Assembly: GCF_029625335.1 (NCBI RefSeq)
Contig: NZ_CP121111.1
Coordinates: 186,001-250,000 of the forward strand
Direction: 5' to 3'
Source: Flavobacterium nitratireducens
Lineage (GTDB): Bacteria; Bacteroidota; Bacteroidia; Flavobacteriales; Flavobacteriaceae
DNA: 64,000 bases
A program made the position numbers and the translations under genes. Below, piece after piece: positions 30,393 through 47,561 of the stretch. Each line of letters starts with the position of its first letter. The stretch's first letter is position 1. The notes below the pieces were generated by a model. The model was not told where the DNA came from and made no database searches. It was given only the letters and a program-made list of their open reading frames with translations.

Positions 30393-30415
30393 TTTATAGC
30401 GAACTCCTTATTCAA
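30393..30415 (-). promoter_or_regulatory. 23-nt shared element, copy 1 (nitrate reductase leader)
   Basis: Read on the minus strand it is TTGAATAAGGAGTT, then C, then GCTATAAA. It ends 10 bases before the nitrate reductase start. It contains TAAGGAG, a Shine-Dalgarno-like word that is rare before Bacteroidota genes. Confidence 0.6.
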
Positions 30416-30857: not shown

Positions 30858-30880
30858 TTGAATAAGGAGTTAGCTATAAA
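30858..30880 (+). promoter_or_regulatory. 23-nt shared element, copy 2 (nrtA side)
   Basis: TTGAATAAGGAGTT, then A, then GCTATAAA. It is identical to copy 1 at 22 of 23 bases and points toward nrtA, 169 bases before its start. Confidence 0.6.
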
Positions 30881-30981
30881 TGTTGTGTTTTGGCAGTTTT
30901 TTTTAATGTTTAGGTACTAGATTAAACTGTGATAAAAAACTGTTTTTGATTGGTTTTTAGGTGATTTTTAAGTAAATATAC

Positions 30982-30994
30982 TTACGTAAATTTG
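30982..30994 (+). promoter_or_regulatory. nrtA -7 box overlapped by TTACGTAA palindrome
   Basis: TAAATTTG (30987-30994) matches the Bacteroidota -7 box. No TTG lies at -33, and the 8-bp palindrome TTACGTAA overlaps the box, which suggests control by a DNA-binding protein. Confidence 0.5.
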
Positions 30995-31049
30995 CTTCAT
31001 ACAAAATAAGAATCTCAATAAGTAAGTTTTAATCATTAAAAAAATCGAT

Positions 31050-32282: not shown

Positions 32283-32303
32283 CAAAGCAAAACATCAAAT
32301 AAT

Positions 32304-32326
32304 CCCTCTCTTTTGAGAGGGGTTTT
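32304..32326 (+). terminator. Attenuating hairpin between nrtA and nrtB
   Basis: CCCTCTC (32304-32310), loop TTTT, GAGAGGG, then G and TTTT. A short stem, so probably a partial terminator that lets nrtA be made in excess of the permease. Confidence 0.6.
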
Positions 32327-32400
32327 AAAACAAATTATCAAGCATAACTAAACAATTGAAACAAACAATACAATTAAGTTAAACTAAAAAAGAAGGAATC

Positions 32401-33287
32401 ATGGCAGAAAGAGAAACATTAACAATTGATGCTCTAGAGGAGGCAAATATTGCTGTAGAATCAACATCTCAGAGTGTAGAAATCAAAAATGAAAAATTAA
32501 GTTTATTCATTGAAAAAGTAGTAACTAAATCAAAATCAGTTTTTTTAGCAATCTTAGGATTGGTTATTTTTGGAGGAGTATGGGAATTAGTAAGTAGTCT
32601 TACCGAAGGTGCTTTGCCAACTCCTATAGCAACATTGACAGTTTTGTATGAAATGCTTAGTGATCCATTTTATGATTATGGACCTAACGACAAAGGGATA
32701 GGATTACAATTAATAAACTCTATTAAAACCGTATTATTGGGTTTTTTTTAGGTTCTTTAGTAGCTATTCCTATGGGAATTTTGATGGGAGCAAGTACAAT
32801 TTGCAAACAAATATTTTATCCTATTGTACAACTTTTAAAACCAGTTTCACCATTAGCATGGTTTCCTATTGGGTTAGTTGTATTTAAAGACACAGGATTA
32901 GCAACAATTTTTATTGTCTTTATTACCTCATTATGGTCAACATTAATTAATACTTCTTTTGGTATAGCATCTTTACCACAAGATCATAAAAATGTAGCCA
33001 AAGCATTTGGATTTTCTAAAATGAGATACCTGACTAAAATTTTAATTCCTTTTAGTTTACCTCATATCATTACAGGTTTACGTTTGAGTATCAGTGTTGC
33101 CTGGTTGGTAATCGTGGCAGGTGAAATGTTGTCAGGAGGTGCAGGAATTGGATTCTTTGTTTGGGATAGCTGGAATGCATTAAGTCTTGAAAAAGTAATA
33201 TCAGCAATTATTATCATTGGAGTCGTTGGATTATTATTTGATAAATTATTCACCTATATCGAAAGTAAAGTAGCATACAAAGCGTAA
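32401..33287 (+). pseudogene. nrtB: Nitrate ABC transporter permease, frameshifted
   Basis: The first 116 residues hold a cytoplasmic tail and the first membrane segment (AILGLVIFGGVWELV), and stop within the phrase SIKTVLLGFF. The other 171 residues (from MGILMGAS) hold the remaining membrane segments and the EAA loop (NVAKAFGFSKMRYLTKILIP). The break is in a run of eight T (32742-32749). Nine T would give LLGFFLGSLVAIPMGILMG, the family's normal sequence. The intact protein would be about 295 residues, a normal NrtB. As nrtA and the ATPase are intact, a sequencing error is likely. Confidence 0.88.
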
Positions 33288-33369
33288 TAAAGAGATTGAG
33301 GTTCAGCTTAGCTAAGGCTTAAAGTTCTGAAATCTAAAATCATCAGTCAAAAATCTAAAATTGAAGATC

Positions 33370-34176
33370 ATGAGTTATTTAGAAATCAAAGATTTGGAAA
33401 TTTCATTTCCAACACCAAAAGGGAAATATACAGCCGTTAGAGATATTAATTTATCCATTAATAAAGGCGAAATCATATCAATTATTGGACACTCAGGTTG
33501 TGGTAAATCAACTATCTTGAATGCAATTGCAGGAATGTTAACTCCTACAGCTGGTTCAGTTGTGTTAAATAATGAAAGTATTAAAGGACCTGGTCCTGAT
33601 AGAGGAATTGTTTTTCAAAATTACTCACTTTTACCTTGGTTAACGGTGTATCAAAACTTGTTTCAAGTTGTCGATTCGGTTGTAAAAGGGACTGTTGCAG
33701 AAAAACAGGAAATTGTGGAAAAAAATCTTAAGATGGTAAATTTGTTTGAACACAAAGACAAATTACCAGGACAACTTTCGGGAGGAATGAAACAAAGAGT
33801 AGCCATTGCTCGTGCCTTTGCAATCAATCCAGGTGTCTTATTAATGGATGAACCTTTTGGGGCTTTAGATGCCTTGACTAAAGGATTTATGCAATTAGAG
33901 GTATTGAAATTATGGAATCTTGATAATCGTGAAAAAACGATTGTGATGATTACTCATGATATTGAAGAAGCGTTATTCTTGTCTGATAGAATTATTGTTT
34001 TAAATAATGGTCCATCTTCAACTATAAAGGAAATTGTTGAAGTTCATTTGCCAAGACCAAGAAACAAAATTGAAATTGTAAAAATGCCTGAATATATTGA
34101 TTTGAGAGATAAATTGTTACACTTGCTAACTGATCACTTCTCAATTGAAGACATGGGAATGAAATACAAAAATTAG
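33370..34176 (+). CDS. nrtD: Nitrate ABC transporter ATP-binding protein
   Basis: A 268-residue ABC ATPase energising the NrtAB importer. Walker A GHSGCGKST, the Q-loop FQNYSLLPW, signature LSGGMKQRVAIARAF, Walker B VLLMDEPFGALD and the H-loop MITHDIEEA are all present. The ATG at 33370 (MSYLEIKDLEISF) is chosen over a TTG three codons upstream. It is a single nucleotide-binding domain without the NrtA-like extension of cyanobacterial NrtC, hence NrtD-type. The symbol is by analogy. Confidence 0.9.
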   Translation: MSYLEIKDLEISFPTPKGKYTAVRDINLSINKGEIISIIGHSGCGKSTILNAIAGMLTPTAGSVVLNNESIKGPGPDRGIVFQNYSLLPWLTVYQNLFQVVDSVVKGTVAEKQEIVEKNLKMVNLFEHKDKLPGQLSGGMKQRVAIARAFAINPGVLLMDEPFGALDALTKGFMQLEVLKLWNLDNREKTIVMITHDIEEALFLSDRIIVLNNGPSSTIKEIVEVHLPRPRNKIEIVKMPEYIDLRDKLLHLLTDHFSIEDMGMKYKN

Positions 34177-34197
34177 TTTAATTTGTTTTGTTTGTTT

Positions 34198-34232
34198 AAA
34201 TCCCTATCGTAGTTGTACGATAGGGATTTTTT
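34198..34232 (+). terminator. Terminator after the nitrate transporter operon
   Basis: AAATCCCTATCGTA (34198-34211), loop GTTG, the exact complement (34216-34229), then a T-run. A 14-bp perfect stem. Confidence 0.9.
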
Positions 34233-34278
34233 AGTGTCGTTGAAAATTTTCTTTTTTATAATTTAAAATCGATATCAA

Positions 34279-34828
34279 ATGAGTAATACAATATTTGAAT
34301 TTATTGGAGGAGATTCAGGAGAGTGGAAGCTAAGGGATATGCAGCTTTTGAAAGGAGAGCCACTGAAAATGGTAGAATATTTAAACAAAGTACCTGGTTC
34401 ATTAGAAAAATCCAAACATGGAATTTGGTCTTTGAAAGGAATTATTAGTAATCTTAGATATACAGAAAAAGCAGAAAAAGAGCAACTGCTTGCTATTCAG
34501 GAAGATTTAGGAAGACCTTCTGCAACTTATGCCGCTTTTATACCTTTAAAAAAATCCGTTGATTGGTGGAATTTGGCCCAGGATGAAAGGAGAAAAAATC
34601 ATGGAAGAAAGTTCTAAACATACTCAAACAGGTTTACAATATTTACCAGCTATTGCTCGAAAATTATTCCATAGCAGGGATATAGGGGAGTCTTTTGATT
34701 TTTTAACCTGGTTTGAATACGCACCTTCTGATGAAAAAGCTTTTGAAGAATTACTGTATAAACTTCGACAAACGGAGGAATGGAATTATATTGAGAGGGA
34801 GGTGGATATTAGGTTGATGAAGGTTTAA
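34279..34828 (+). pseudogene. Chlorite dismutase-family protein, frameshifted
   Basis: Two overlapping frames make one protein of about 182 residues. The first ends at 34617 after WWNLAQDERRK, and the second continues IMEESSKHTQTGLQYLPAIA, ARKLFHSRDIGESFDFLTWF, EYAP and ends REVDIRLMK. The family (PF06778) binds heme; the conserved histidine in KLFHSRD is the likely proximal ligand. The A6 run at 34593-34598 would be in frame with five A. Relatives lie near nitrate assimilation genes in other bacteria; the reaction is unknown and chlorite is not implied. Confidence 0.75.
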
Positions 34829-34851
34829 TATCAGAATATATATCAAACAAT

Positions 34852-34880
34852 AAAGCTCGTTTATATCAAACGAGCTTTGT
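34852..34880. terminator. Terminator between the chlorite dismutase-like gene and the AraC-type gene
   Basis: AAAGCTCGTTT (34852-34862), loop ATATC, AAACGAGCTTT (34868-34878). It lies between convergent genes. Confidence 0.8.
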
Positions 34881-34918
34881 TATTATATCTCTTTATTGTT
34901 TTGATTTTTTTTTGCTTC

Positions 34919-36076
34919 TTAAGCAATCTGAATGTTATTAAGATATTCATTTGGAGCCAAACCAATAATTTCTTTAAAACTTGTAAAAAAAGGATTGTAT
35001 GAAGTGAAACCAATTTCTCTTGATAAAGAATCTAAAGTATTATTTTTAAGGTATCCTTCATTAATAAGTTTTATAGCATAATGGATTCGTACTGAATTTT
35101 TAAATTCAGTAAATGATATGCTACAGTGGTATTTAAAAACATACGATAAGTGACTTTTAGGAATATTTATTCGACTCGCTAAATCGGTTAGAGTGAGTTT
35201 TGAATCTTTAAAAATTTTATCTTCGAGGGCTGTCTTTTCAATGACTTCGAAGTAATTTTGAAGATTAGCATCTATTTTTTCTTTTAAAACTCGATGTTGG
35301 ACATTGCTAATTTTAATCATAGGTTGCAATTGCCAAATTTCATCAAAAATTAAATTTGAACTTCTGTTTTCCTGTACTTTATCAGTTAGAATTTTATAAC
35401 CATAAAGAATTTCTGGAGTTACTATTATTTTGACTAAAATTATCATCAATATGATTGCTGACACCCATTGAAAAGACATTCCTCTTATTGCCTCACCATT
35501 TATAAGTTCTACAAATAAAGAAATGGTTAATCGCAAAGTAACGAGCAGCATGGCAATGAATAAAAAGACTGTCCAATGATAGGTTTTCCGTAATTGTTTT
35601 TTTGTGAATTTATTTTCTCCTTTTTTGTTCCAAATAGTGTTTTTTAAAGTTTTGAAACTTAAGTACAAATAAATTATTAAAAAGAGTACAAAGATTAAAT
35701 ACAATACGAATCTAAGTAGAAATAATGGTTTGAAATAGTTGTTTATTTCAAAAATTAATAAAAAATATGCAACTGGGAAGATAAAATGTAATAAATCTTT
35801 TTTCTCGAATGATTTAAGAGCTGTTATCTTCTTAAAATACAAATAACATAATGGAATGACTACGAAAGAAATGTTAGAATAACTATCATAATGTATTCTT
35901 TCTACATTGAATAGTAAATTGAGAATTCCATAACTAAAGTAACGTGTTGAGATGACAAAAATTAATAGAACAATATAAATGTTCATTATTGGATTTGATT
36001 TTCTATTGGCAAATAGAATTCCACTAATTATATAGCCAATTAAACCCGATATGATGTATAAGGAATCAAATATCAT
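34919..36076 (-). CDS. AraC-family regulator with N-terminal membrane domain
   Basis: A 385-residue protein. Residues 1-235 contain about seven hydrophobic segments (starting MIFDSLYIISGLIGYIISGI). Residues about 280-385 are a two-HTH AraC DNA-binding domain (LTDLASRINIPKSHLSYVF; then SREIGFTSYNPFFTSFKEII, with G(F)xSxxxFxxxFKxxxG). This architecture is common in Flavobacteriia; the membrane part probably senses a signal or partner. It is monocistronic, with its start about 260 bp from the divergent fibre locus, so it could regulate that locus. The target is inferred from position only. Confidence 0.8.
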   Translation of the reverse strand: MIFDSLYIISGLIGYIISGILFANRKSNPIMNIYIVLLIFVISTRYFSYGILNLLFNVERIHYDSYSNISFVVIPLCYLYFKKITALKSFEKKDLLHFIFPVAYFLLIFEINNYFKPLFLLRFVLYLIFVLFLIIYLYLSFKTLKNTIWNKKGENKFTKKQLRKTYHWTVFLFIAMLLVTLRLTISLFVELINGEAIRGMSFQWVSAIILMIILVKIIVTPEILYGYKILTDKVQENRSSNLIFDEIWQLQPMIKISNVQHRVLKEKIDANLQNYFEVIEKTALEDKIFKDSKLTLTDLASRINIPKSHLSYVFKYHCSISFTEFKNSVRIHYAIKLINEGYLKNNTLDSLSREIGFTSYNPFFTSFKEIIGLAPNEYLNNIQIA

Positions 36077-36338
36077 TTGTTTTTTAGATAGCTTTAATAA
36101 AAATTATATTGAATTAAATCTTCTTAAAAAAAATCAAATTTAGATTAAAAAACCCGATTAACTACACGTTTTTTTGTTTTTTTTTTAAAATTAAAGTAGG
36201 AATAGTTTTGTTTTTAATAGACATTTGTTTACTAAAAAGTGAAAAAGCATTACTATTTGCTTTAAATTTTATCGACGAAACGCATAAAACATCGTTAAAA
36301 TGAAGATTTGTTTTATTTTTGTTTTAAAATTATATTTT

Positions 36339-36809
36339 ATGAAGTTTATACTGTTTTTTATCACTCTTCCTTTTTATGGTCAGGTGTTGCATCATCAAAT
36401 GTTGTCCTCACAAGGAACTTCCAAAAAAATAGCTAACGGTTATATTATTAGTCAGACAATAGGGCAACAAAGCACTGTAGGAAATTCTGATAAGAACGTT
36501 GTCGCTATTCAAGGTTTTCAGCAAAGCAATTGGAGTACTATTATTTCTTCAAATGAAACTAATCAAATTACAACTTTAACGTTTCCTAATCCTTTTGCTG
36601 AGGTTGTAAATTTTCAATTCTCGCAAGCTATAAAAGAGGAGATGTCCATTTATGTTTTTGATATCGCGGGTCGTTTGGTTTACCAACAAAAAAAGCAGGT
36701 AACAAATCAGCTTTTATCTATAAATCTATCTAATTTACCTCAATCGGAATACTTAGTTAAACTTCAAAATAACACGCTAACTTACTATACTAAACTTGTA
36801 AAACTATGA
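36339..36809 (+). CDS. Small T9SS type A sorting-domain protein
   Basis: About 156 residues from the chosen start at 36339 (MKFILFFITLPFYGQV, a signal peptide). The N-terminal part carries HQMLSSQGTS and ISQTIGQQSTVGN...IQGFQQSNW, a widespread Bacteroidota motif. The last 75 residues are a type IX secretion C-terminal domain (FPNPF start, IYVFDIAGRLVYQQ, ending LVKL). So it is exported through the T9SS to the cell surface or medium. It overlaps the next gene by 4 bases and opens the five-gene fibre locus. Confidence 0.8.
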   Translation: MKFILFFITLPFYGQVLHHQMLSSQGTSKKIANGYIISQTIGQQSTVGNSDKNVVAIQGFQQSNWSTIISSNETNQITTLTFPNPFAEVVNFQFSQAIKEEMSIYVFDIAGRLVYQQKKQVTNQLLSINLSNLPQSEYLVKLQNNTLTYYTKLVKL

Positions 36810-37435
36810 TAAAAAACTACTTTTTAGGTCTGTTTTTTTTAACAACGGCTACATTATTTTCCCAGGAAATTTATTTGAAAACAGGAAAAAATTACACCAA
36901 GTATAAGTATAAAGACTCGAATCTTCAGAGCAATCCTAATCTTCAAAGTGGAACGGGGAGTTTTTATGAAATTGGATTTATAAAACCTTTAACCAATAAA
37001 AAAATCTATTATTCATTAGGACTTTCCTTGAATGATTATAATGCTATTGGAGGAAACATGGCGAATTCCTATCGTTGGGATACCCAATATTTGGGTTTAC
37101 AATCTGGTTTGCAATACCAATTATTTTCATTCAAAACGAATAAAAAAAATGCTATTGATGTAGTGGTTAAAACTGATTTGAATATATCTTCTATGATTTA
37201 TGGGAAACAAGAAATCAATGGTGTTTATTATGATTTGAAGAAACAAGAAGAATTTTCAGGAATCCTTTTAGAATCATCATTAGGCTTACAGTTTAAGTAC
37301 CGAATTCCTGCTATTGGAGGATTGAGTTTAGGCTATGATTTTGCTCAAACAGTAAATGTAGGAAGCTCATCCAAAGAGCACTTGTCTTACAATACAAATC
37401 AACTCGAATTAGGGATCCATTTCAATATTAATTAA
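36806..37435 (+). CDS. Predicted small outer-membrane beta-barrel protein
   Basis: A 209-residue protein with a Sec signal (MIKNYFLGLFFLTTATLFSQ). The mature part alternates polar and aromatic residues in strand-like stretches (SFYEIGFIKPL; KIYYSLGLSLNDYNAIGG; LELGIHFNIN), ending in an aromatic/hydrophobic C-terminal strand as in outer-membrane barrels. It lies between the T9SS protein and the giant fibre protein, with a 4-base overlap upstream and 8 bases downstream. It is much shorter than PorP/SprF (about 300 residues), but could play a similar anchoring role. Family not recognised. Confidence 0.6.
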   Translation: MIKNYFLGLFFLTTATLFSQEIYLKTGKNYTKYKYKDSNLQSNPNLQSGTGSFYEIGFIKPLTNKKIYYSLGLSLNDYNAIGGNMANSYRWDTQYLGLQSGLQYQLFSFKTNKKNAIDVVVKTDLNISSMIYGKQEINGVYYDLKKQEEFSGILLESSLGLQFKYRIPAIGGLSLGYDFAQTVNVGSSSKEHLSYNTNQLELGIHFNIN

Positions 37436-37443
37436 TCAAGGAT

Positions 37444-40164
37444 ATGAAAAAAATAGTACTATTATTTATATTTTTTGTAGCAACACAAGTTTTTGCACAA
37501 AATAAAGGAATTACCTATCAAGCAGTAATTTTTAATCCTAAAGGAGAGCAACTTCCGGGGGTAAATAATTCAAATAGTCCGTTAGTAAATAAAAATATCT
37601 GTTTACAGTTTAAGTTTGTAGATGAATTTTCTAATGTTGAATACCAAGAAACTATTCAAACCCAAACCGATTCTTTTGGTATGGTTAATCTAGTAATAGG
37701 TTCAGGAACTCAAACAGCAGGTTACGCACCCTCTTTTAATGGTATAGTTTGGAATAATACCAAGAAGAGCTTAATAGTTGGAATTAATGCTCAAGGGACT
37801 TGTTCTAATTTTGTTGAAATAAGCAATCAAGTATTTACCTATGTTCCATTGGCTTTTACTGCTGTAAATGCAGAGAATGTTACCGGAGTTGTGGGGATTG
37901 AAAATGGAGGAACTAATGCTACAACAGTACTAGGCGCTAGAACTAATTTAGGAATCAATAATGTTGATAACACAAGTGATGCAAATAAACCAATTAGTCT
38001 TGCAACACAAGTGGCTTTAAATCTGAAAGAAAATGTAGCAAATAAAAGTACAAATGTTACAACTGATGGAGCTTCTGATACAAAATACCCAAGTGTAAAA
38101 TCGGTTAAGACCTATGTTGATGCAAGTGCTGCAACTGCTTCTACTGCATTGGCTAATGAAATCACAAGAGCAACTGCTGCAGAGACTACAATTGCAACCA
38201 ATTTAACAGCAGAAACTACAGCAAGAACAGCAGCTGATGCAACTTTTACAACTAATTTAGCTACTGAAGTAAACAATAGAACAGCTGCCGACTTACTGAA
38301 AGAAGATGTTGCTAACAAAAGTACGAATGTTACCACCGATGGAAATTCGGATGTAAAATACCCAAGTGTAAAATCGGTTAAGACGTATGTTGATGCCAAT
38401 GCTACAACCTCTTCTACAGCTTTAGCCAATGAAGTAACAAGAGCAACCACTGCAGAAACTACAATTGCAACCAATTTAACTGCTGAAACAACAGCCAGAA
38501 CAGCAGCAGATGCTACATTAACAACTAATTTAGCTACTGAAGTAACCAACAGAACCGCTGCCGACTTACTGAAAGAAGATATTGCTAACAAAAGTACAGA
38601 TGTAACCACCGACGGAAATTCGGATGTAAAATACCCAACTGTAAAATCGGTTAAGACCTATGTTGATGCAAGTGCTACAACTGCTTCTACAGCTTTAGCC
38701 AATGAAGTAACAAGAGCAACCGCTGCAGAAACTATAATTGCAACCAATTTAACAGCAGAAACCACAGCTAGAACAGCAGCTGATGCCACTTTGACAACCA
38801 ATTTAGCTACCGAAGTAAGCAACAGAACCGCTGCCGATTTATTAAAAGAAGATCTAGCCAACAAAAGTACTGATGTAACTACTGACGGAACTTCGGATAC
38901 GAAATACCCAAGTGTGAAATCGGTTAAAGATTATGTTGATAATGCTACTAGTTCTATAAACACTTTAGAAAATGGAAAAATGTACATTGGTAATGATAGT
39001 AATCAGGCAACTGAGGTAGCTATTTCAGGTGATGTAACAATAGATAATTTGGGAGTTACTGCTATAGGGGCTAATAAAGTGATCACTTCTATGATTGCAG
39101 ATGATGCAGTTGAAACTAACAAAATCAAAGATGCTAGTGTAACTTCTTCCAAATTGACAACTTCTATTGATTTGTCGGGTATTCCTACTGCACCAACAGC
39201 GGATGAAGGGACAAACACAACACAGATAGCAACTACTGCTTTTGTTACTTCAGCAGCATCTTCATCAAAGTTTGTTGATTTATCTAGTCATCAAACTATT
39301 GGAGGAAATAAAACTTTTAATGAACCTTTAAATGTAAAATCTGGAGATGGACAATTAGCCAAAATTGGTACTATAGGAAATGTAGATAACTTGTATTTTG
39401 GTCAGGCTAATTTTGTATATGCCCCATCGGTAGGAAGAAATAATACAGTTATGGGAACTTTTGCTTTTACATCTTCTGGAGGAAGTAATAACACTGTTAT
39501 TGGAAAAGATGCGATGAGACAAGGGAATGGAAGTGGAGGAGATGATAATACAGCTTTAGGATTTAGAGCTTTGTCTAATGCTCAAGAAGGATCAAGAAAC
39601 ACTGCTGTAGGTACAAGTACTATGGAAATGGGGATGGGAACTGACAATGCATCTTTAGGTTATCGAGCTGGAGTAAATTTAACCACTGGTTCAAAAAATA
39701 CAATTATAGGAAGTAACGCAAATGTTTCAAATGGAGCTTTAACGAATGCTACTGCTATAGGTTATGGTGCAACGGTAGCAAATAATAATACTATTCAATT
39801 GGGGAATTCAGATATTAGTAATGTAAATACTTATGGTTCTGTAACGGCTAATGCAGCAATTACAGATGAGATAACTTCCGATTTAACTATTGATAGTAAT
39901 AATGTCGAGCAATATAAAAGTAAAATACTAATATGTAATCCTAGTAGTCCTATCACGATCACATTTGCTAATGGATTACCAAGAGGGTTTAATTGTATGA
40001 TTTTGCAAAAAAGTGATGATGCAAATAAAATTAATATTTCAGGAGGGCTAGGAGTAACGATGAAAAACAGAAATAATTATACTGCAACGGCTGGTAATTA
40101 TGCAATTGCAACAGTTGTGAGTATAGGTGGGGATATTATTGTTACTGCAGGAGATATGCAATAA
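37444..40164 (+). CDS. Exported fibre protein: tail-fibre-like shaft, tandem coiled-coil repeats, YadA-like head
   Basis: A 906-residue protein. Residues 1-19 are a signal peptide, and about 20-150 an N-terminal beta domain (GITYQAVIFNPKGEQLPG) frequent in Flavobacteriia. About 155-190 has the phage tail-fibre phrase LGINNVDNTSDANKPIS. About 198-500 holds three 91-residue repeats and a partial fourth (ANKSTxVTTDGxSDxKYPSVKSVK, then AETTIATNLTAETTARTAAD). About 660-790 are YadA-head-like NT(A/V)(I/L/M)G repeats. No T9SS domain is visible. Trimerisation is inferred from these motifs. Probably a surface fibre or adhesin. Confidence 0.72.
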   Translation: MKKIVLLFIFFVATQVFAQNKGITYQAVIFNPKGEQLPGVNNSNSPLVNKNICLQFKFVDEFSNVEYQETIQTQTDSFGMVNLVIGSGTQTAGYAPSFNGIVWNNTKKSLIVGINAQGTCSNFVEISNQVFTYVPLAFTAVNAENVTGVVGIENGGTNATTVLGARTNLGINNVDNTSDANKPISLATQVALNLKENVANKSTNVTTDGASDTKYPSVKSVKTYVDASAATASTALANEITRATAAETTIATNLTAETTARTAADATFTTNLATEVNNRTAADLLKEDVANKSTNVTTDGNSDVKYPSVKSVKTYVDANATTSSTALANEVTRATTAETTIATNLTAETTARTAADATLTTNLATEVTNRTAADLLKEDIANKSTDVTTDGNSDVKYPTVKSVKTYVDASATTASTALANEVTRATAAETIIATNLTAETTARTAADATLTTNLATEVSNRTAADLLKEDLANKSTDVTTDGTSDTKYPSVKSVKDYVDNATSSINTLENGKMYIGNDSNQATEVAISGDVTIDNLGVTAIGANKVITSMIADDAVETNKIKDASVTSSKLTTSIDLSGIPTAPTADEGTNTTQIATTAFVTSAASSSKFVDLSSHQTIGGNKTFNEPLNVKSGDGQLAKIGTIGNVDNLYFGQANFVYAPSVGRNNTVMGTFAFTSSGGSNNTVIGKDAMRQGNGSGGDDNTALGFRALSNAQEGSRNTAVGTSTMEMGMGTDNASLGYRAGVNLTTGSKNTIIGSNANVSNGALTNATAIGYGATVANNNTIQLGNSDISNVNTYGSVTANAAITDEITSDLTIDSNNVEQYKSKILICNPSSPITITFANGLPRGFNCMILQKSDDANKINISGGLGVTMKNRNNYTATAGNYAIATVVSIGGDIIVTAGDMQ
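38038..38940 (+). repeat. Tandem repeat of 273 bp inside the fibre gene
   Basis: The repeat unit restarts at 38038, 38311, 38584 and 38857, an exact 273-base period (91 codons), three full copies and part of a fourth. The copies differ mainly at synonymous sites. Such a tract can lengthen or shorten by recombination and so vary the fibre length. Confidence 0.9.
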
Positions 40165-40208
40165 TTTGAGTTAAATAGATAAAATTTTAAGTTAATAAAA
40201 GAATAGTT

Positions 40209-41699
40209 ATGAAAAAAAATATACTGATAATACTAATTGTGCTTTTTGCAAGTTACACTAGAACTGTTGCAAATAATTTGATAATGGGAACGCCAAGTGT
40301 AAGCGGAAATTCTGTTACTTTCACGATTAAATGGGATAATAGCTGGAATGTTACTACAGGACCCTCTAATTGGGATGCTGTATGGGTATTTGTTAAAAGG
40401 CAATCATGTGTTAATGGTGCCACAAGTCCTTGGATTCACGCCGATTTAGCAACTTCTGGTCAATCTGTTTCAGGGGCTCAACTTCAGGTTGATTTAGTTA
40501 CTGATAACAAAGGGGTTTTCATAAGAAGAAATGCTCCAGGAATTGGAATTATAAACGAGGCAACAGTTACATTAACTTTGGCAACAGCTGTTGGAGCAGA
40601 TAATATAGGTGTTTATGGAATAGAAATGGTCAACATACCTCAAGGACAATTTTATATTGGTGATGGTAGGGTAGATATGCGTAGTTTTTCAGAAGGTGGT
40701 ACTGATGCTCCAAAATTAATCGATGCTACTGTTCAAACTAACGGTCTAGGGGCTGCTTCAAATTATCAAAAACAATCATTAGGTTCTGCAGGTAATTTAC
40801 CTTCAACATTTCCACTAGGGTATAATCGTTTTTATTGCATGAAATATGAAATTACTGCTGCACAATACGTTGCTTTTTTAAACACACTTTCTTACAAACA
40901 ACAATTGAGAATGCAACGTGATTATAATTCGAATACAACACCACCTACATCTCCGGCTGGTACCCAATTTCATTGTTGGCCTTGTTCTAATCGATCTGCG
41001 AATATTGTGATAGCAACACCGGCACAATCATTAACACAAATGTCTCCTGCGGTATATGCTAATGACTTTGATAACGATGGTGTATATAACGAAGATGAAG
41101 ATGGTTTAGGTTTGCCAGTGGCATTGAATATGAAAAACTTCTTTGCATTTTTAGATTGGGCTGCCATACGTCCTATGACTGAATTTGAATATGAAAAAGT
41201 GTGTAGAGGACCTGTTACTCCTACAGCTAATGAATATGCTTGGGGTTCGACCGATTTATTCAGGGAATTTGATGTGGTAGATAGAGGAAAATCGACAGAA
41301 CAAAATAGAAAAAATGGTTTAGGACCAACGAATAGTGGGTATGATACTTTTTATAGAACAGGTATGTTTGCTACAGCAAGTTCTGATAGATTGCACGCTG
41401 GAGCTACTTATTATGGCGTGTTAGACATGACTGGTGGAGTATGGGAATCTTGTATAGGTGGATGGGGTGTTGATTATTCAAATTTTACTACTGCCAATGG
41501 AGATGGTAATTTGTATGAAAGTGGAGAGTCAATGAATAATGGTTCAACAGATATGGCAGAATGGATTCCTAATAGAATTATTGTAAAGGGAGGAGGAGCA
41601 AACTGGCAAGGAGAATGGATGGGTGTATCGCCTCGAAATTGGGTGAATTTTGATAGTTATGGTTTTTTTCAAGGAGGACGTGGAGTGAGATCTTATTAA
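40209..41699 (+). CDS. Formylglycine-generating-enzyme-like (SUMF1/PvdO) exported protein
   Basis: A 496-residue protein with a signal peptide (MKKNILIILIVLFASYTRTV). Residues about 25-135 are a beta domain of unknown type. Residues about 140-496 match the FGE-sulfatase fold: GVYGIEMVNIPQGQFYIGD, YCMKYEITAAQYVAFLN, WAAIRPMTEFEYEKVCRGP, GVLDMTGGVWE and GGRGVRSY. FGE homologues are C-type-lectin-fold proteins; some make formylglycine with copper, others are structural or ligand-binding. No sulfatase lies nearby, so a structural or modifying role for the adjacent fibre proteins is more likely. Inference only. Confidence 0.75.
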   Translation: MKKNILIILIVLFASYTRTVANNLIMGTPSVSGNSVTFTIKWDNSWNVTTGPSNWDAVWVFVKRQSCVNGATSPWIHADLATSGQSVSGAQLQVDLVTDNKGVFIRRNAPGIGIINEATVTLTLATAVGADNIGVYGIEMVNIPQGQFYIGDGRVDMRSFSEGGTDAPKLIDATVQTNGLGAASNYQKQSLGSAGNLPSTFPLGYNRFYCMKYEITAAQYVAFLNTLSYKQQLRMQRDYNSNTTPPTSPAGTQFHCWPCSNRSANIVIATPAQSLTQMSPAVYANDFDNDGVYNEDEDGLGLPVALNMKNFFAFLDWAAIRPMTEFEYEKVCRGPVTPTANEYAWGSTDLFREFDVVDRGKSTEQNRKNGLGPTNSGYDTFYRTGMFATASSDRLHAGATYYGVLDMTGGVWESCIGGWGVDYSNFTTANGDGNLYESGESMNNGSTDMAEWIPNRIIVKGGGANWQGEWMGVSPRNWVNFDSYGFFQGGRGVRSY

Positions 41700-41720
41700 A
41701 TTATTTAATACTAATAAGGC

Positions 41721-42227
41721 ATGAAAAAAATAATCTTACTGACTTTATTTTATTTTAGTTGTAATTACCTTCAAGCGCAAATTGGTTTGCCAAGCATGAG
41801 AGGGGTAATATCTGCTGGATCAAAAATTATTCCTACTATGTATTCTGGTGGGAAAGGAATTGGTTCAGATCAAAAAGAAATAATTCAAAATAATTGTACG
41901 CCTTTACTTGTTGAATCTATATTTTATGGAGGTCAAGGATATGGCTCTCAAGATAATATTTTGTCTCAAACGGTATGTTCCCCTGCTATTGTTGAGTCCA
42001 TATTTTATGGAGGTCAAGGATATGGCGCTCAAGATAATGTTCTAGTACAATCTGTTTGTAGTACACCTGTTGTTGAATCCATTTTTTATGGTGGAAAAGG
42101 GTCAGGAACTATAGATAATTTTGTTATACAATCCATTTGTACTAATCCATTAACTGAATCCATTTTTTTTGGGGGTAATGGTTATGGTGATCAACAGAGT
42201 ATTGTTATTCAAACCATTTGTCAATAA
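41721..42227 (+). CDS. Exported 27-residue-repeat protein
   Basis: A 168-residue protein with a signal peptide (MKKIILLTLFYFSCNYLQAQ). About 130 residues are made of five 27-residue repeats of the form ESIFYGGxGYGxQDNxxxQxxC followed by five variable residues; the first copy is degenerate and the last is cut. Each repeat has one cysteine and a Gly-Gly-x-Gly turn, giving regularly spaced cysteines suited to disulfide or metal cross-links. No known family is recognised. It is last in the fibre locus, 21 bases after the FGE-like gene, and before a strong terminator. Confidence 0.7.
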   Translation: MKKIILLTLFYFSCNYLQAQIGLPSMRGVISAGSKIIPTMYSGGKGIGSDQKEIIQNNCTPLLVESIFYGGQGYGSQDNILSQTVCSPAIVESIFYGGQGYGAQDNVLVQSVCSTPVVESIFYGGKGSGTIDNFVIQSICTNPLTESIFFGGNGYGDQQSIVIQTICQ

Positions 42228-42246
42228 TTAAAATAGAATAAAATAG

Positions 42247-42294
42247 AAAAGGATAAATGAACTAAACATAAGAAAGTTCATTTATCCTTTTTTT
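42247..42294 (+). terminator. Terminator of the fibre locus
   Basis: A 17-bp perfect stem (42247-42263 with 42275-42291), then further T. It marks the end of the five-gene unit, and faces convergent dus. Confidence 0.88.
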
Positions 42295-42318
42295 ACGAAT
42301 AGTTAACTAGTTTTATGT

Positions 42319-43263
42319 TTACCCCTCCTTTATAATCTCTCTCACTGCCTGCTCATAATTACGGATGCTTTTTGCTTTTTTAATTTTTTTATGGATTTTG
42401 TGGGGATTGGAAAAGATCACTGAAAAGTATTCCCAGAGGTGATGCATTTTCAATAAAATGTGTGTTGCTCCCGATAAGGATTCACTATAACCGGCGTATA
42501 AAGTATCGTGAAAATCGCTGAACAATTCCATTTTGTTTGATGGATATTCGCTGCTGTTGCTTTTGATCATCGAAGGTAAAAAAGGATCAGCAATTAATCC
42601 GCGACCTATCATCCAATGGTCGATGGTAGGAAAGCGTTCCTGCATTTTTTGAAATTGAGCCACCGAAGTAATATCACCGTTATAATACAATTTTAGTTTG
42701 GTGTTGTCTACACATTGTTGGAAACCGTCTAAATTCACTCCACCATTGTACAATTGTTTCCCAATGCGGGCATGAATTGCCACATTCTTAATCGGGTATT
42801 TTTCTAAAAGAGGTAAAACATTCAGAATTTCTTCGGGAGTTTCATAACCCAAACGCATTTTCATCGAAACAATAATATCCGATTCGGCATGAACTCTTTC
42901 CAGAATATGATCAATTTTTTGTGTTTGGCAAATCAATCCGGATCCCATGCCAGATTTGGTTACCATTGGATACGGACAACCTAAATTCCAATTCAATTCT
43001 TTATATCCTAATTCCTGAACATATTTCGAAACAAATAAAAATTCATCCGCATCATTACTAATGATTTGAGGAATAACTTCTAAATCCTGATTGTTCTCAG
43101 GAAGTAAGTCACGTTGGTAGGAAGATTTTACAACCAGTTTTCCGTTTAAGCGAATGTAAGGAGAATAAAAAGTATCAATACCGCCAAAATATTTGTTTTG
43201 CGCATTTCTAAAGCGAAAATCAGTAAATCCTTGAAGAGGAGAGGAAAGAAGGGTATAGCTCAT
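42319..43263 (-). CDS. dus: tRNA-dihydrouridine synthase family protein
   Basis: A 314-residue FMN-dependent enzyme that reduces uridine to dihydrouridine in tRNA. It starts MSYTLLSSPLQGFTD (43263; a longer start at 43281 has no support). The catalytic-loop cysteine is in NWNLGCPYPMV (family LNxGCP), followed by VSMKMRLGYETPEE, AIHARIGKQLY and a GRGLIADPFL phrase. Size and the short C-terminal domain suggest a DusC-like class; which tRNA position it modifies cannot be read. A promoter overlaps the upstream terminator. Confidence 0.87.
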   Translation of the reverse strand: MSYTLLSSPLQGFTDFRFRNAQNKYFGGIDTFYSPYIRLNGKLVVKSSYQRDLLPENNQDLEVIPQIISNDADEFLFVSKYVQELGYKELNWNLGCPYPMVTKSGMGSGLICQTQKIDHILERVHAESDIIVSMKMRLGYETPEEILNVLPLLEKYPIKNVAIHARIGKQLYNGGVNLDGFQQCVDNTKLKLYYNGDITSVAQFQKMQERFPTIDHWMIGRGLIADPFLPSMIKSNSSEYPSNKMELFSDFHDTLYAGYSESLSGATHILLKMHHLWEYFSVIFSNPHKIHKKIKKAKSIRNYEQAVREIIKEG

Positions 43264-43278
43264 AAAAAAATAATTGTG

Positions 43279-43311
43279 CAAATATAATCAATGGAAACCA
43301 GAACTATACAA
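43279..43311 (-). promoter_or_regulatory. Promoter of dus
   Basis: On the minus strand TTG (43309-43311), 22 bases, then TATATTTG (43279-43286). The -33 TTG lies inside the last bases of the neighbouring terminator stem. Confidence 0.55.
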
Positions 43312-43352
43312 AACGTAAAAAGACTTTCGCTAGAAAGTCTTTTTACGTTTTG
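43309..43352 (-). terminator. Perfect 20-bp terminator of the sigma/anti-sigma operon
   Basis: Bases 43309-43328 and 43333-43352 are exact complements around a GCTA loop, with internal A5/T5 tracts. One of the longest perfect stems in the window. Confidence 0.9.
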
Positions 43353-43416
43353 AACTAAATTCTAAGATTATTAATTGCTTAATCAACTTGACTTGTTAAT
43401 GGTATAAATGTCTATT

Positions 43417-44202
43417 TTATACTTTACCTAAAGTGTATAATTGTTCTAATGTAGGAGTTAAACTTCCTCCAGCAGGTTCCAATGTAATACCGAAAGCTTC
43501 AGCTTCGGCAATATTATTAACGGCAAAAAAGCGCTCGTTATTGTCTTTAAATTTATCCAATAAACCAATACTGGTAGGTGTAAGAGGATTTAATTTTAAA
43601 GCCCAAACTTGGTAAACCATTCCTTTTGGAGGTTCTGGTAATCCAGAAGCATCTACATAAACCGTTTGCGTATCTTTGTTCCAATATACTTTTGCAGAAG
43701 ATTCTGGGGAAACCGTTTGTCCTCCAAGTGTGATTACGGTGTTTTTGTCGTCTTTGATAACAGCCAAATGAGTTTCGATAGCGGCTTTTTTAGTCGCTAA
43801 TTCGTTACGTTCTTTTTCGATTTTTACTTTTTCTAAGTTGGTAGTTACTATTTGATTATTAGTAAGTTCTAATTGATTGTATTGAAAACCAATTCCTGCC
43901 AAGAGTATAATAGCGGCTGCCCAACCGACGTATTGAGCCCAATTTCTTTTTGGACTCATGTTGATAACTTCAGGGGTGCTCAAGTTTAGTTTTTCTTTTA
44001 TAGCGGCATAATTTTTAACCGATTGAAAAGGAGCAAAGCTAGACGATAAGGCCAACATTGATTTTTCGATAGCTATAATTTCGGCATTAATTTCAGGATA
44101 TTTTTTAGCCATTTCAGCAACCTCTTCACTTTCGGTTTCTGATAATGAACCAAAAACATAAAGTTCTAATATACCTGATTCTATATATTCTTTCGTTTCC
44201 AT
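43417..44202 (-). CDS. Anti-sigma factor, RskA type
   Basis: A 261-residue membrane protein. Residues 1-75 form the cytoplasmic anti-sigma domain (ESGILELYVFGSLSETESEE, a zinc-less ASD). One membrane segment lies around 88-105 (YVGWAAAIILLAGIGF), then a periplasmic coiled coil and the RskA domain (VYWNKDTQTVYVDASGLPEP, GMVYQVWALKLNP). It sequesters the ECF sigma factor encoded 4 bases upstream and probably releases it after regulated proteolysis. Confidence 0.88.
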   Translation of the reverse strand: METKEYIESGILELYVFGSLSETESEEVAEMAKKYPEINAEIIAIEKSMLALSSSFAPFQSVKNYAAIKEKLNLSTPEVINMSPKRNWAQYVGWAAAIILLAGIGFQYNQLELTNNQIVTTNLEKVKIEKERNELATKKAAIETHLAVIKDDKNTVITLGGQTVSPESSAKVYWNKDTQTVYVDASGLPEPPKGMVYQVWALKLNPLTPTSIGLLDKFKDNNERFFAVNNIAEAEAFGITLEPAGGSLTPTLEQLYTLGKV

Positions 44203-44206
44203 CGTA

Positions 44207-44755
44207 CTATACTTTCAAATAGTTTCTTAAATCATTAATACAGTTTCTGTTGTGTGTTTTTACCGTTCCTAATGGAATTTCAAGTTCATCAGCAGCTTCC
44301 TGTTGGGTATAACCTTTAAAAAACAATAAGTCTATTATTTGGATACATTTAGGTTTTAATCGTTTGATGAAATCCTGCAGTCCTATTCCGTCTACTTTAT
44401 TGGTCAATTTGTTATTGTCTTCAAATAGATTTACGAAATTATCTGAAGAAAGGTTTTTTTGACTGTTGTTAAAGTTTTTAGAACGTAATCTATCAATCGA
44501 AGTATTTCGTGCGATATTTAGAATCCAAGTGTAAAAACGTCCTTTATTTTCGTTATAAGTATCTAAGTTTTTCCAGATTTTAACAAAAACCTCTTGGAGT
44601 ACGTCCTCCGCTTCTTCTGTGTTTTTGATTAAGTTACTTATAACCGCAAATAAACTTTTGGCATACATATCATAAAGATGTGTGAATGCTTTTTCGTCCT
44701 TTCTGTAAATTAAAGCTAATAATTCGTCTTGACTCATCGTTTTTATATTTTGCAT
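44207..44755 (-). CDS. ECF-type RNA polymerase sigma factor
   Basis: A 182-residue sigma-70 family protein. Region 2 is at about 10-85 (AFTHLYDMYAKSLFAVI; EEAEDVLQEVFVKIWKNL; GRFYTWILNIARNTSIDRLR), and region 4 at about 125-180 with the HTH YTQQEAADELEIPLGTVKTH. It pairs with the RskA-like anti-sigma gene and would redirect polymerase on a cell-envelope or stress signal. The start could be base 44755 or the second Met six codons later. Confidence 0.92.
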   Translation of the reverse strand: MQNIKTMSQDELLALIYRKDEKAFTHLYDMYAKSLFAVISNLIKNTEEAEDVLQEVFVKIWKNLDTYNENKGRFYTWILNIARNTSIDRLRSKNFNNSQKNLSSDNFVNLFEDNNKLTNKVDGIGLQDFIKRLKPKCIQIIDLLFFKGYTQQEAADELEIPLGTVKTHNRNCINDLRNYLKV

Positions 44756-44927
44756 TACAAACTTAGGGAAACTTATTTGATATCTTAAAACTTTTCTTAA
44801 AATCGGGTTTAAAAATTCTTGTTATTAATCTAATATAGAATATTTAACAACAGTTTAATACTTTTTATCTCTTTTTCAAAAGGAAAAATGAATGCAAATT
44901 ACTTACTTTTATCAAAAATATATTTTT

Positions 44928-45497
44928 ATGAAAAAAATAATAATGTTGGCTTTCAGCGCTATGTTTCTTTTTAGTGGATTCGTTCAAGCACAAAATAAAA
45001 AATCAAAAAAGGTAGATACGCAAAGTATTTATCAGTTTAAGGTTAAAACATTAGATGGGGAAACTTTTGATTTTTCTACTCTAAAAGGTAAAAAAGTACT
45101 AATTGTGAATACCGCTTCCAAATGTGGTTATACACCACAATATGAGCAATTAGAAAAAATTTATAAGGAATATAAAGCCAAAGGATTTACAGTTATAGGT
45201 TTCCCAGCCAATAATTTTAATGGTCAAGAACCAGGAACTAATGAAGAAATTGAATCATTTTGTAAATTAAATTATGGAGTTACTTTCCCGATGATGGAAA
45301 AAATTTCGGTTAAAGGTGATGACATAAGCCCGATTTATCAGTTTTTAACACAAAAAGCAAAAAACGGACTGAAGGATTCAGAAGTAAAATGGAATTTTCA
45401 AAAATATTTGATTGACAAAAAAGGACATTTGGTAGAAGTGTATTATTCTAAAACAAAACCGGATGCACCCGAAATTGTGAATTGGATAAAAGAATAA
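44928..45497 (+). CDS. Glutathione peroxidase (cysteine type), exported
   Basis: About 189 residues from 44928 (MKKIIMLAFSAMFLFSGFVQAQ, a signal peptide). The thiol peroxidase core has NTASKCGYTPQYEQL with the peroxidatic Cys, a GFPANNFNGQEPG phrase with the catalytic Gln/Asn side, and VKWNFQKYLIDKKG with the catalytic Trp. It reduces peroxides, probably with thioredoxin, in the periplasm. It is divergent from the ECF sigma gene across about 170 bp, which invites a test of sigma dependence. Confidence 0.9.
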   Translation: MKKIIMLAFSAMFLFSGFVQAQNKKSKKVDTQSIYQFKVKTLDGETFDFSTLKGKKVLIVNTASKCGYTPQYEQLEKIYKEYKAKGFTVIGFPANNFNGQEPGTNEEIESFCKLNYGVTFPMMEKISVKGDDISPIYQFLTQKAKNGLKDSEVKWNFQKYLIDKKGHLVEVYYSKTKPDAPEIVNWIKE

Positions 45498-45513
45498 ATA
45501 ATAGACAAAATGG

Positions 45514-45556
45514 AAAAAGCGATTTTTAATGATAAATTAGAAATCGCTTTTTTTTT
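45514..45556 (+). terminator. Terminator of the glutathione peroxidase gene
   Basis: AAAAAGCGATTT (from 45514) pairs with AAATCGCTTTTT (45541-45552), followed by T. Confidence 0.85.
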
Positions 45557-45613
45557 GAGATATGATCATTTAAAAATCAGTTCTAAAATTTATAAAATAG
45601 CAATCCATCTTTG

Positions 45614-45621
45614 TATCTTTG
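45614..45621 (+). promoter_or_regulatory. -7 box of menD
   Basis: TATCTTTG, 21 bases before the menD ATG. It shows that the TTG at 45619, which overlaps it, is not the translation start. Confidence 0.55.
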
Positions 45622-45642
45622 TTTCTTATTGAAAAACAAAGA

Positions 45643-47304
45643 ATGATTTACCCCAAAATACCTTTAGCGCAAAGTATCCTTGAGATTTGTTTGGCCAAAG
45701 GAATACAGCAAATTGTCATTTCTCCAGGTTCCAGAAATGCACCACTAACCATAGGTTTTGCAAATAATCCTGATTTTAAATGTTATAGCATTGCCGATGA
45801 ACGCTGTGCTGCTTTTTTTGCCTTAGGTATTGCACAACAAATCAAACGTCCGGTAGCTCTAGTTTGTACTTCGGGTTCGGCATTACTCAATTACTATCCC
45901 GCTATTGCAGAGGCTTTTTATAGTCAGATTCCTTTGATTGTAATTTCGGCCGATAGGCCACAAAGTAAGATTGATATTGGCGACGGTCAGACCATTCGCC
46001 AAGAAAATGTTTTTGCAAACCACTCTTTGTACAATGCCAATTTATCAGAGGAAGCATCCAAAGAAAATGATTTTAAAATCAATGAAGCAATAGATGCTGC
46101 TTTTTATAAAAAAGGTCCAGTACATATTAATGCGCCTTTTGAAGAACCTTTATATGAAACGACAACGGAACTTTCGGTAGATGTAATGGTGAATCATTTT
46201 GCCAGTTTAAATTCCGTTAATCAATTAGAGGATTTAACTGAATTTGCTGCAAGCTGGAATCAATCGGCTAAGAAATTAGTGTTAGTAGGAACCAATGATC
46301 CTGGTTTGATTTCAAATGCAACCATTGAAGCTTTGGCTAACGATGAATCAGTTGTGGTCATGACCGAAACAACTTCTAATTTGCATCATCCAAATTTCGT
46401 TGCCAATATCGATACGATAATAACGCCTTTTACAGATGCTGATTTTGAAGACTTTTGTCCGGATATTTTAGTCACTTTTGGCGGAATGATTGTGTCTAAA
46501 CGCATCAAAGCCTTTTTAAGAAAATACAAACCCAAACAGCATTGGCATATTGATTCTTTGCGTGCTTATGATACTTTTGGGGTTTTGACGAAACATTTTG
46601 AAGTAAATCCGGGTACTTTTTTCGAAACATTTTTGCCTTTAACAACTGCTGTTAAAAGCGAGTATTTTGCTAAAATGGAAAAGATAAAGGCGCTTCGAGA
46701 AGAAAAACAAGAAGTCTTTTTGTCAAAAGTTTCGTATTCTGATTTTTTAGTTTTTGATAGCATAATAAAGTCTTTGCCTCAAAACAGCCAATTGCAAATC
46801 AGTAATAGTTCTGCTATTCGATATGCCCAATTAATGAAAATAGATCCTTCAATTGAGGTTTTTTGTAACCGAGGAACTAGTGGAATTGACGGAAGTACTT
46901 CGACTGCTATTGGAGCAGCCGTAGCTTCAAATAAACCAGTTGTTTTTGTTACTGGTGATGTGAGTTTTCTGTATGACAGCAATGCGCTATGGAATGCTTA
47001 TATACCCAAAAATTTCAAAATTATTCTTGTAAATAATGGTGGAGGAGGTATTTTTAGAATTTTACCAGGACATCAAGAAAATGCTGTTTTTAATACTTAT
47101 TTTGAGACATCGCATCAATTAACAGCAGAACATTTGGCTAAAATGTATGGTTTAGTTTATATAACTGCTTCTGAAAAAGAAAGTTTAGTTAATAGTTTGA
47201 ACCAATTATATTCACTGAATACTCAGCCAGCAATACTAGAAATTTTTACTCCAACAGCTGAAAACGATGTTGTTTTAAAGCAGTTTTTTAGGGAGTTGGT
47301 TTAA
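45643..47304 (+). CDS. menD: 2-succinyl-5-enolpyruvyl-6-hydroxy-3-cyclohexene-1-carboxylate synthase
   Basis: A 553-residue ThDP-dependent enzyme of menaquinone synthesis, joining isochorismate and 2-oxoglutarate. It starts MIYPKIPLAQS at 45643. MenD phrases are VISPGSRNAPLTIGF (residues 24-38), DERCAAFFALGIAQ, CTSGSALLNYYPA, the central NRGTSGIDGSTSTAIGAA, and the ThDP-Mg loop GDVSFLYDSNAL...NNGGGGIF. Length is normal. It is the first men gene of the right-hand cluster and ends at a strong terminator. Confidence 0.95.
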   Translation: MIYPKIPLAQSILEICLAKGIQQIVISPGSRNAPLTIGFANNPDFKCYSIADERCAAFFALGIAQQIKRPVALVCTSGSALLNYYPAIAEAFYSQIPLIVISADRPQSKIDIGDGQTIRQENVFANHSLYNANLSEEASKENDFKINEAIDAAFYKKGPVHINAPFEEPLYETTTELSVDVMVNHFASLNSVNQLEDLTEFAASWNQSAKKLVLVGTNDPGLISNATIEALANDESVVVMTETTSNLHHPNFVANIDTIITPFTDADFEDFCPDILVTFGGMIVSKRIKAFLRKYKPKQHWHIDSLRAYDTFGVLTKHFEVNPGTFFETFLPLTTAVKSEYFAKMEKIKALREEKQEVFLSKVSYSDFLVFDSIIKSLPQNSQLQISNSSAIRYAQLMKIDPSIEVFCNRGTSGIDGSTSTAIGAAVASNKPVVFVTGDVSFLYDSNALWNAYIPKNFKIILVNNGGGGIFRILPGHQENAVFNTYFETSHQLTAEHLAKMYGLVYITASEKESLVNSLNQLYSLNTQPAILEIFTPTAENDVVLKQFFRELV

Positions 47305-47365
47305 ATGTATAACTCAATTACTGACTTCGTTTTGTTTTAAATAATTCATTATAAGATAAATAGAT

Positions 47366-47408
47366 AAACTCTTCTGTGGTTACTACAGAAGAGTTTTTTT
47401 GTTTTTTT
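47366..47408 (+). terminator. Terminator of menD
   Basis: AAACTCTTCTGT (47366-47377) and ACAGAAGAGTTT (47385-47396) form a perfect 12-bp stem, followed by T-rich sequence. Confidence 0.88.
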
Positions 47409-47415
47409 AATACAG

Positions 47416-47426
47416 GACAGTACAGG
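47416..47426 (+). repeat. GACAGTACAGG motif, copy 1
   Basis: The same 11 bases recur at 50101-50111. Each copy lies upstream of one of the two adjacent disrupted genes. Possibly an operator of a polysaccharide-utilisation type regulator. Confidence 0.5.
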
Positions 47427-47561
47427 TTAGTTAATTGGTTTGAAGTGTTTATTTTAGTAAACTTTAACTTATCTATTTATTACCAAGTGTACATTTGTTT
47501 GTAAGCTAGTTTGTAATAAATATAAATTGAGGTCTTATCATTTAATATAATTTTTTTTCAC

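Follow-up and report, generated by a model that had tools for sequence, protein, structure and literature searches.

What does a run of five adjacent genes encoding exported proteins make in Flavobacterium nitratireducens, and do all five belong to one structure? The genes (G1 to G5, all on the plus strand) lie at positions 36339 to 42227 of the window, the whole 64,000-nucleotide stretch analyzed, which is part of a closed 2.99-Mb genome. The original prediction, made from the letters alone, described the five as one system: a surface appendage with anchor, shaft, head and a modifying or capping factor. We found that G1-G3 form a constant part and that G4-G5 are one of several exchangeable ends, each made of a fiber tip and the genes that follow it (the cargo). 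We favor, at a probability of roughly 0.6, the reading that the locus makes a cell-surface adhesive fiber with exchangeable ends, on whose tip matched binding proteins dock; both the docking and the function we infer from sequence comparisons. We did not find the locus described in the open-licence papers searched.

The first three genes form a constant base

G1 (36339 to 36809; an in-frame ATG at 36300 is a possible alternative start) encodes an exported mini-protein of 156 amino acids (aa). It has the Por_Secre_tail C-terminal domain that marks type A substrates of the type IX secretion system (T9SS), above cut-off in two family models (PF18962, 52.6 bits, cut-off 27; TIGR04183, 41.3 bits, cut-off 23). 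This agrees with the T9SS-sorted mini-protein originally proposed, and the secretion route is predicted from this tail. G2 (36806 to 37435) had no match in Pfam, and its single NCBIfam match was far under the cut-off (17.8 versus 43). Based on the domains of longer relatives, G2 is probably a small OmpA-like outer-membrane barrel and a candidate fiber anchor: two relatives (L070 and L085; 414 and 425 aa) contain OmpA (PF00691) and another (L084; 379 aa) contains OMP_b-brl_2 (PF13568). G3 (37444 to 40164) encodes the fiber, with 906 aa and one match in its own genome. Its N-terminal domain (G3N; residues 1-150, 37444 to 37893) would be the cell-proximal end.

These three genes kept their order in other genomes. 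We searched 100 related genomes with G1 to G5 singly, and called a G3N match strong at E < 1e-20. There were 21 strong G3N matches, in 16 genomes. All 21 had a G1 match beside them (at a distance of up to ~300 bases, or separated by G2). G2 was also present at 18 of them; those lacking it were G036, G047 and the second locus in G019. We also scanned the sequence collection with an alignment of the barrel and obtained 40 loci (24 titled Flavobacterium; they overlap partly with the 100 genomes, and a few share one genome). In 40/40 the T9SS mini-protein was directly 5' of the barrel and a G3N-bearing fiber was directly 3'. G1 and G2 lay no more than a few bases apart, in most loci with an overlap of 4 bases, and G3N started -23 to +20 bases from the barrel gene. 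This conserved order is in line with an appendage that has an anchor, a shaft and a head. The original prediction had named homologs scattered without their partners as evidence against a system. Scattering was found for the FGE-like family of G4 (see below) and for some weaker G3N matches, which sit in genomes without a G2 match (e.g., G082); the core was not scattered.

G3N had a mean column identity of 63% over 34 sequences. Cys53 and Cys120 were both present in 32 of these and both absent in two, and neither was found alone, which suggests that they form a disulfide. An AlphaFold2 model of G3N was a beta-sandwich (predicted local distance difference test, pLDDT, 79), and comparing it to the PDB and to viral models gave nothing at E 0.001 or better. 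All 34 sequences matched NF053851, the N-domain of the Bdellovibrio mosaic adhesive trimers (MATs), with a best E of 9e-9. The match of the G3N in the window (33 bits, E 4.7e-8) did not reach the curated cut-off of 60.

Some other records touch the base. In L082 (3296-6769; G039:C2), a G1-type mini-protein had as neighbors a 668-aa protein and what looks like a PorP/SprF-like barrel (names assigned by eye), with no fiber seen adjoining. A locus like that of Flavobacterium was also present in records (L097, L109, L113, L115 and L117) whose titles name Bifidobacterium breve, Chryseobacterium gleum and Chitinophaga pinensis; these titles may be wrong.

Two fiber tip types go with particular downstream genes

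We clustered the ends of the fibers together with the genes that follow them, using 29 of 30 fibers (L088, a 70-residue fragment, was dropped). Eleven fibers had a tip that we call T0, and all 11 were followed by one or more genes, one of which bore a motif of ~38 residues (the KNG motif, of the form xxKNG...YVNKNGxxG...NG). The T0 cargo proteins, which are exported, were otherwise unrelated. The five that we tested had fn3 with a weak beta-helix, a glycine-rich sequence, a weak fibrinogen-like match, PA14 with Ig, or Lcl_C. In L087 the motif spanned residues 24-61 (total 219), in L096 residues 250-287 (total 508) and in L089 residues 776-814 (total 815). Running a model of the motif over 788 open reading frames (ORFs) at E < 0.5 gave only the T0 cargo and one protein outside the model (G025; 1.5e-8), which also sits 3' of a T0 tip. 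When groups were left out of the model, L087 and L096 were recovered.

We found that the motif and the tip occurred together. Among the 100 relatives, KNG was in 10 genomes, T0 in 12, and both in nine (p 1.1e-9). Leaving out the five genomes used for the model (n=95), four had both, three had T0 only and one had KNG only (p 5e-5). Among 398 genomes of the genus, 31 had KNG, 46 had T0 and 28 had both (Fisher p 1.4e-27). In all 28, the two were on the same contig and strand, and the motif was 106-5770 bases 3' of the tip. The association was tightest for close T0 tips (E < 1e-30): 26 of the 29 genomes with such a tip carried KNG. For the other three, a scan of the stretch found KNG in G403 (7e-6), G314 had none at E 0.01, and the tip in G199 was 789 bases from the end of its contig.

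The pairing was also found on other fiber bases. In G010 (L153:4407-12008), a T0-tipped fiber has a different N-terminal base and no G1 or G2, with a relative of the regulator divergent on its 5' side; it is still followed by a KNG protein. G219 has a similar pairing on another fiber base.

The fiber in the window has a different tip, T1 (the last 98 residues of G3; 39868 to 40161). Five clustered fibers had T1 in the strict sense, and all were followed by G4 and G5 (in L095 the G5 ORF overlaps G4). T1 is followed by G4 and G5 in L107 as well. Strong T1 matches occurred in six of the 398 genomes (G000, G039, G131, G233, G300 and G312), each followed directly by G4 and G5.

A C-terminal domain of ~130 residues is common to a T0 cargo protein, in L093, where it follows KNG, and to two proteins, P0003 and P0007, where it follows G5-type repeats. 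L093 was 59% identical to P0003 and 52% identical to P0007 over ~150 residues. One end domain thus hangs on two different linking segments, and wherever the tip is known, each segment goes with a tip type of its own. P0003 and P0007 are known as proteins, outside a genomic context, and a shared domain is no proof of docking.

Several of our results weigh against a tip-cargo rule, or narrow it. In the leave-group-out tests, L121 was weak (E 0.08) and L116 was outside the 18 best; when a group of seven was left out, G036 alone was found at the correct place at E < 0.001. Eighteen of the 46 T0 genomes had no KNG match. Among T0 tips with E above 1e-30, KNG was found in two of 17 genomes, and the rule is therefore limited to close T0 tips. 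Three of the 31 KNG genomes had no T0 match: G019 has two motif proteins after a fiber with a different tip, G211 has a weak match with a stop and no ORF match in its stretch, and G312 is described below. The Fisher values overstate independence because the genomes are related and because nine of the 30 motif peptides checked nearly duplicated a training peptide (identity of 90% or more). The remaining 21 were below 90%, 18 of them with T0; these counts are approximate, as the wrong stretch was taken for at least G025, G145 and G211, and G386 had no locus. For T1, G131 and G233 alone of the six genomes were outside the model, and the count of six covers strong matches, with 11 further genomes having weaker T1-like matches. 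L111 joins the T1 cluster under looser BLAST and has no G4 or G5. The co-occurrence of T1 with G4 and G5 could be plain linkage, as these are always the same two genes. Members of the FGE-like family of G4 were also found at sites without a fiber match (G040, G048, G013 and G076). A structure model of G5 was unusable (pLDDT 47) and was discarded.

These points bear on a simpler explanation: an ordinary variable fiber gene might lie in a recombination hot spot, and the downstream genes might be swapped along with it without ever touching the fiber. Neighboring genes are inherited together, several tip types had no clear cargo, and the weaker T0 tips mostly lacked KNG, all as such hitch-hiking would have it. 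However, what goes along with the close T0 tips is only a short motif, placed differently in proteins that are otherwise unrelated, and it does so on different fiber bases as well; linkage to a single gene is therefore not a full explanation. The same end domain on either linking segment also speaks against hitch-hiking. We consider this explanation rather unlikely, and prefer the reading in which tip and cargo are matched.

Tips and cargo are exchanged between genomes

The exchange of ends could be seen by comparing loci. The G3N in the window was 80% identical to that of F. flevense, with no meaningful match between the tips. In comparison to L107, G3N was 59% identical, the tip 76% and G4 68%. 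Anchor and tip thus evolve separately. Similarly, the barrels of F. sufflavum and F. undicola were 98.6% identical, the tips were different, and a KNG protein was present in F. undicola only.

Exchange also appears to have occurred within a species. G219 is labeled as the same species as the window, and matches it on both sides of the locus: 96.6% identity over 19019-34829 on the left, and 98.9% over 42329-44778 and 98.6% over 44903-48838 on the right. The segment between (34830 to 42328) was diverged or absent. The regulator and anchor region were ~65-72% identical to the window, and matches in the segment were 65-74% at most, except for the tail of a flank. In its place, G219 has a different fiber end and a KNG protein of 1933 aa, along with a second, short fiber that ends in a T0 tip. 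Because both flanks match and the segment between them is diverged, the piece from regulator to terminator appears to have been replaced inside a single species. The G219 assembly is a draft from a metagenome, 73% complete, and may mix strains. Its locus is split over two contigs (C15 and C4), which we joined by inference on the strength of the two flanks. The difference spans the entire segment, as hitch-hiking would also predict.

Two further observations concern these loci. In G219, a 453-aa ORF (L194:9471-10832) separates the KNG cargo from the right flank, which is conserved. In G312, a KNG ORF of 57 residues (L231:3041-3214) comes directly after a complete T1 cassette. It looks like a remnant of a T0 cassette that T1 replaced.

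G3 has a repeat shaft and a phage-like head

The middle of G3 contains a tandem repeat (38023 to 38940; 3.4 copies of a 273-bp unit, or 91 residues), followed by a YadA- or tail-spike-like head (39430 to 39858; residues ~663-805). The head matched the phage family phrog_4636 at residues 695-801 (E 7.3e-16). The 287-aa C-terminal part of G3 matched 27 phage records (best E among the matches listed, 1e-7). The description of G3 as a 906-aa tail-fiber- or YadA-like protein therefore stands in its length, its shaft and its head. G3 alone had no match in the PDB by sequence at E 0.01. It also had no Pfam family up to E 0.1, and so no detectable C-terminal YadA membrane anchor; we rejected G3 as a trimeric autotransporter for want of this domain.

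The head raises the question of whether G3 is simply the tail fiber of a prophage or tail remnant. It does resemble phage tail spikes, and Sinorhizobium phage ort11 weakly matched a T0 tip (E 2e-3). In contrast, the proteins have signal-like N termini, no phage match was found for G3N or G4, and the flanking genes were constant in many of the loci displayed. The remaining genes had PHROG matches at E 0.01 only for the regulator and, once, for G5 (0.006), which we read as chance. A phage origin of this kind is very improbable.

G4 and G5 are probably not an enzyme and its substrate

G4 (40209 to 41699) encodes an exported protein of 496 aa with an N-terminal domain and a domain like that of formylglycine-generating enzymes (FGE; residues 206-420). 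PF03781, the FGE-sulfatase domain, scored 41.5 bits (cut-off 23.3). With G4 alone, a sequence search of the PDB at E 0.1 found no match; a profile of the G4 family matched solved FGEs (6s07, E 5.1e-5), with an alignment that stops before the C-terminal cysteine region. FGE has two catalytic cysteines near its C terminus, which would presumably fall after residue 415 of G4. Beyond this residue, no alignment column had cysteine in more than one of 10 relatives. G4 lacks the conserved pair, and is therefore probably not an FGE. The FGE-like domain of the original prediction holds, and the role of modifying factor is weakened.

G5 (41721 to 42227) encodes an exported 168-aa protein with repeats of 27 residues (81 bp). 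Its cysteines, at 59, 86, 113, 140 and 167, are exactly 27 residues apart, as predicted; Cys14, an additional one, is inside the signal-like part. A search of 5.8 billion proteins found nine relatives at E 0.001 or better, and relatives elsewhere have additional C-terminal stretches.

G4 might nevertheless be an FGE-like enzyme that modifies the cysteine repeats of G5 or the fiber. FGE recognizes the motif CxPxR. The G5 repeats contain C-x-P or C-x-x-P, which recalls this motif, G5 follows G4 in the T1 loci seen, and G4 has the PF03781 fold. Distant, cysteine-bearing "FGG" repeats also adjoin G4 relatives in G040, G048 and G013. However, the repeats of G5 have no arginine at the motif position, and the C-terminal cysteines are missing as described. 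Use of the fold for something other than FGE activity also has a precedent in the T9SS PorKN ring, where a repurposed FGE fold is reported (excerpts of PMC12421860). We think that enzymatic modification is improbable.

FGE-like folds also serve as the variable proteins of diversity-generating retroelements, and G4 could in principle be a hypermutated, C-type-lectin-fold protein of this type. The DNA of the region matched only itself in the genome (E 0.001), leaving no sign of a template repeat; no search was aimed at reverse transcriptase. We give this possibility almost no weight.

G4-like proteins have a second setting. In L024, L025 and L026, FGE-fold proteins like G4 adjoin ~1036-aa T9SS-type proteins with cysteine-bearing "FGG" repeats, without a fiber match. 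The FGG-repeat protein of L024 also carries PKD, Ig_7 and a T9SS tail.

Boundaries and neighboring genes

The five ORFs were at the positions claimed for them, and their spacing, exported look and terminator were borne out. The gaps from G1 to G5 are -4, +8, +44 and +21 bases, in order. All five proteins have a hydrophobic, signal-like N terminus, judged by eye for G1-G3 and by a rough rule of our own for G4 and G5. The intrinsic terminator (42245 to 42293, plus strand) has a 19-bp stem and an 11-base loop (-21.3 kcal/mol, z -7.5); a hairpin scan limited to loops of 3-8 bases did not list it.

Divergent from the operon is a gene (34919 to 36076, minus strand) for a 385-aa membrane AraC-type regulator, with HTH_18 at residues 299-380 (43.2 bits, cut-off 33.6) and a membrane part judged by eye. 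Relatives of it were divergent on the 5' side of 29 of the 40 barrel loci, and with this synteny the gene may control the operon, as originally proposed. A Bacteroidetes-type promoter pattern matched eight times with eight expected, and none of the matches was 5' of G1. Comparing the DNA of the region to plasmids (megablast) gave no match. At 34279-34828 the window has a pair of ORFs (112 and 89 aa) that overlap. A single 182-aa ORF takes their place in L088 and in L229, a stretch from the same species, so that a frameshift seems to have broken the gene in this genome, unless the sequence contains an error.

Discussion

We suggest that the fiber could work as follows. G3N would bind the barrel G2, the T9SS-delivered G1, or both, at the outer membrane, giving a foot linked to the cell wall. 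The shaft would trimerize. The T1 tip would then dock G5 and G4, as T0 tips would dock cargo with the KNG motif. The docked proteins, among them some with LamG, PA14, Lcl_C or an FGE/C-type-lectin-like fold, may touch other cells, surfaces or glycans. The tip and its cargo, or the entire locus, would be swapped when the conserved flanks recombine, leading to strain-specific binding. We found no T9SS signal in the fibers and cargo tested (no match below E 0.09 with a model of the G1 tail).

A more specific version, to which we give even odds, is adhesion by socket and plug. A conserved fiber with a T9SS/OmpA foot would present one of several sockets (such as T0 or T1), and each socket would recognize a short plug on separately encoded binding proteins. 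The plugs would be the KNG motif for T0 and the 27-residue cysteine repeats of G5, with G4, for T1. Binding domains may move between plugs, and strains could re-arm one fiber platform by exchanging a socket and its plug at once.

Among the closest known systems are the Bdellovibrio MATs, which are phage-like chimeric fibers on the cell surface with an invariable N-domain and variable tips (excerpts of PMC10769870). The likeness extends to the weak similarity of the N-domain across all the G3N sequences. Here, unlike in the MATs, the fiber gene sits with genes for a barrel and a T9SS mini-protein, and the tips have separately encoded partners. We do not file the locus in the MAT family because the NF053851 cut-off was missed; it appears instead to be a variant of mosaic fibers, presumably trimeric, that resembles them in working style.

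Other known systems share some features. In T-even phages, a detachable adhesin, gp38, caps the variable tip of the gp37 fiber and varies with it. The locus is similar in having a separate protein for a variable tip, changing with the tip; gp37 and gp38, in contrast, are parts of a virion, and the likeness is one of description. Trimeric autotransporter adhesins (type Vc) have a YadA-like head and a repeat stalk as G3 does, whereas G3 has no anchor domain detectable with Pfam and its variable end, which we take as distal, is C-terminal. FGEs share PF03781 with G4 and differ in the C-terminal cysteine pair. T9SS type B substrates, with a SprF/PorP shuttle and PorE, also combine a protein bearing the C-terminal domain with peptidoglycan-linked outer-membrane proteins encoded alongside (excerpts of PMC12618676). 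The locus differs in that the tail of G1 is type A and that G2 would be a small barrel of the OmpA kind; in addition, the fiber showed no such C-terminal domain.

The surface element bound by the N-domain of MATs still awaits identification, according to excerpts of PMC10769870. Our analysis proposes an anchor, consisting of a barrel and a T9SS-sorted mini-protein, for fibers with an N-domain resembling that of the MATs. It offers a code from tip to cargo that can be read from sequence, and a clear case of a difference within a species across an entire surface-fiber locus. Together, these would aid in understanding strain-specific attachment in a large environmental genus.

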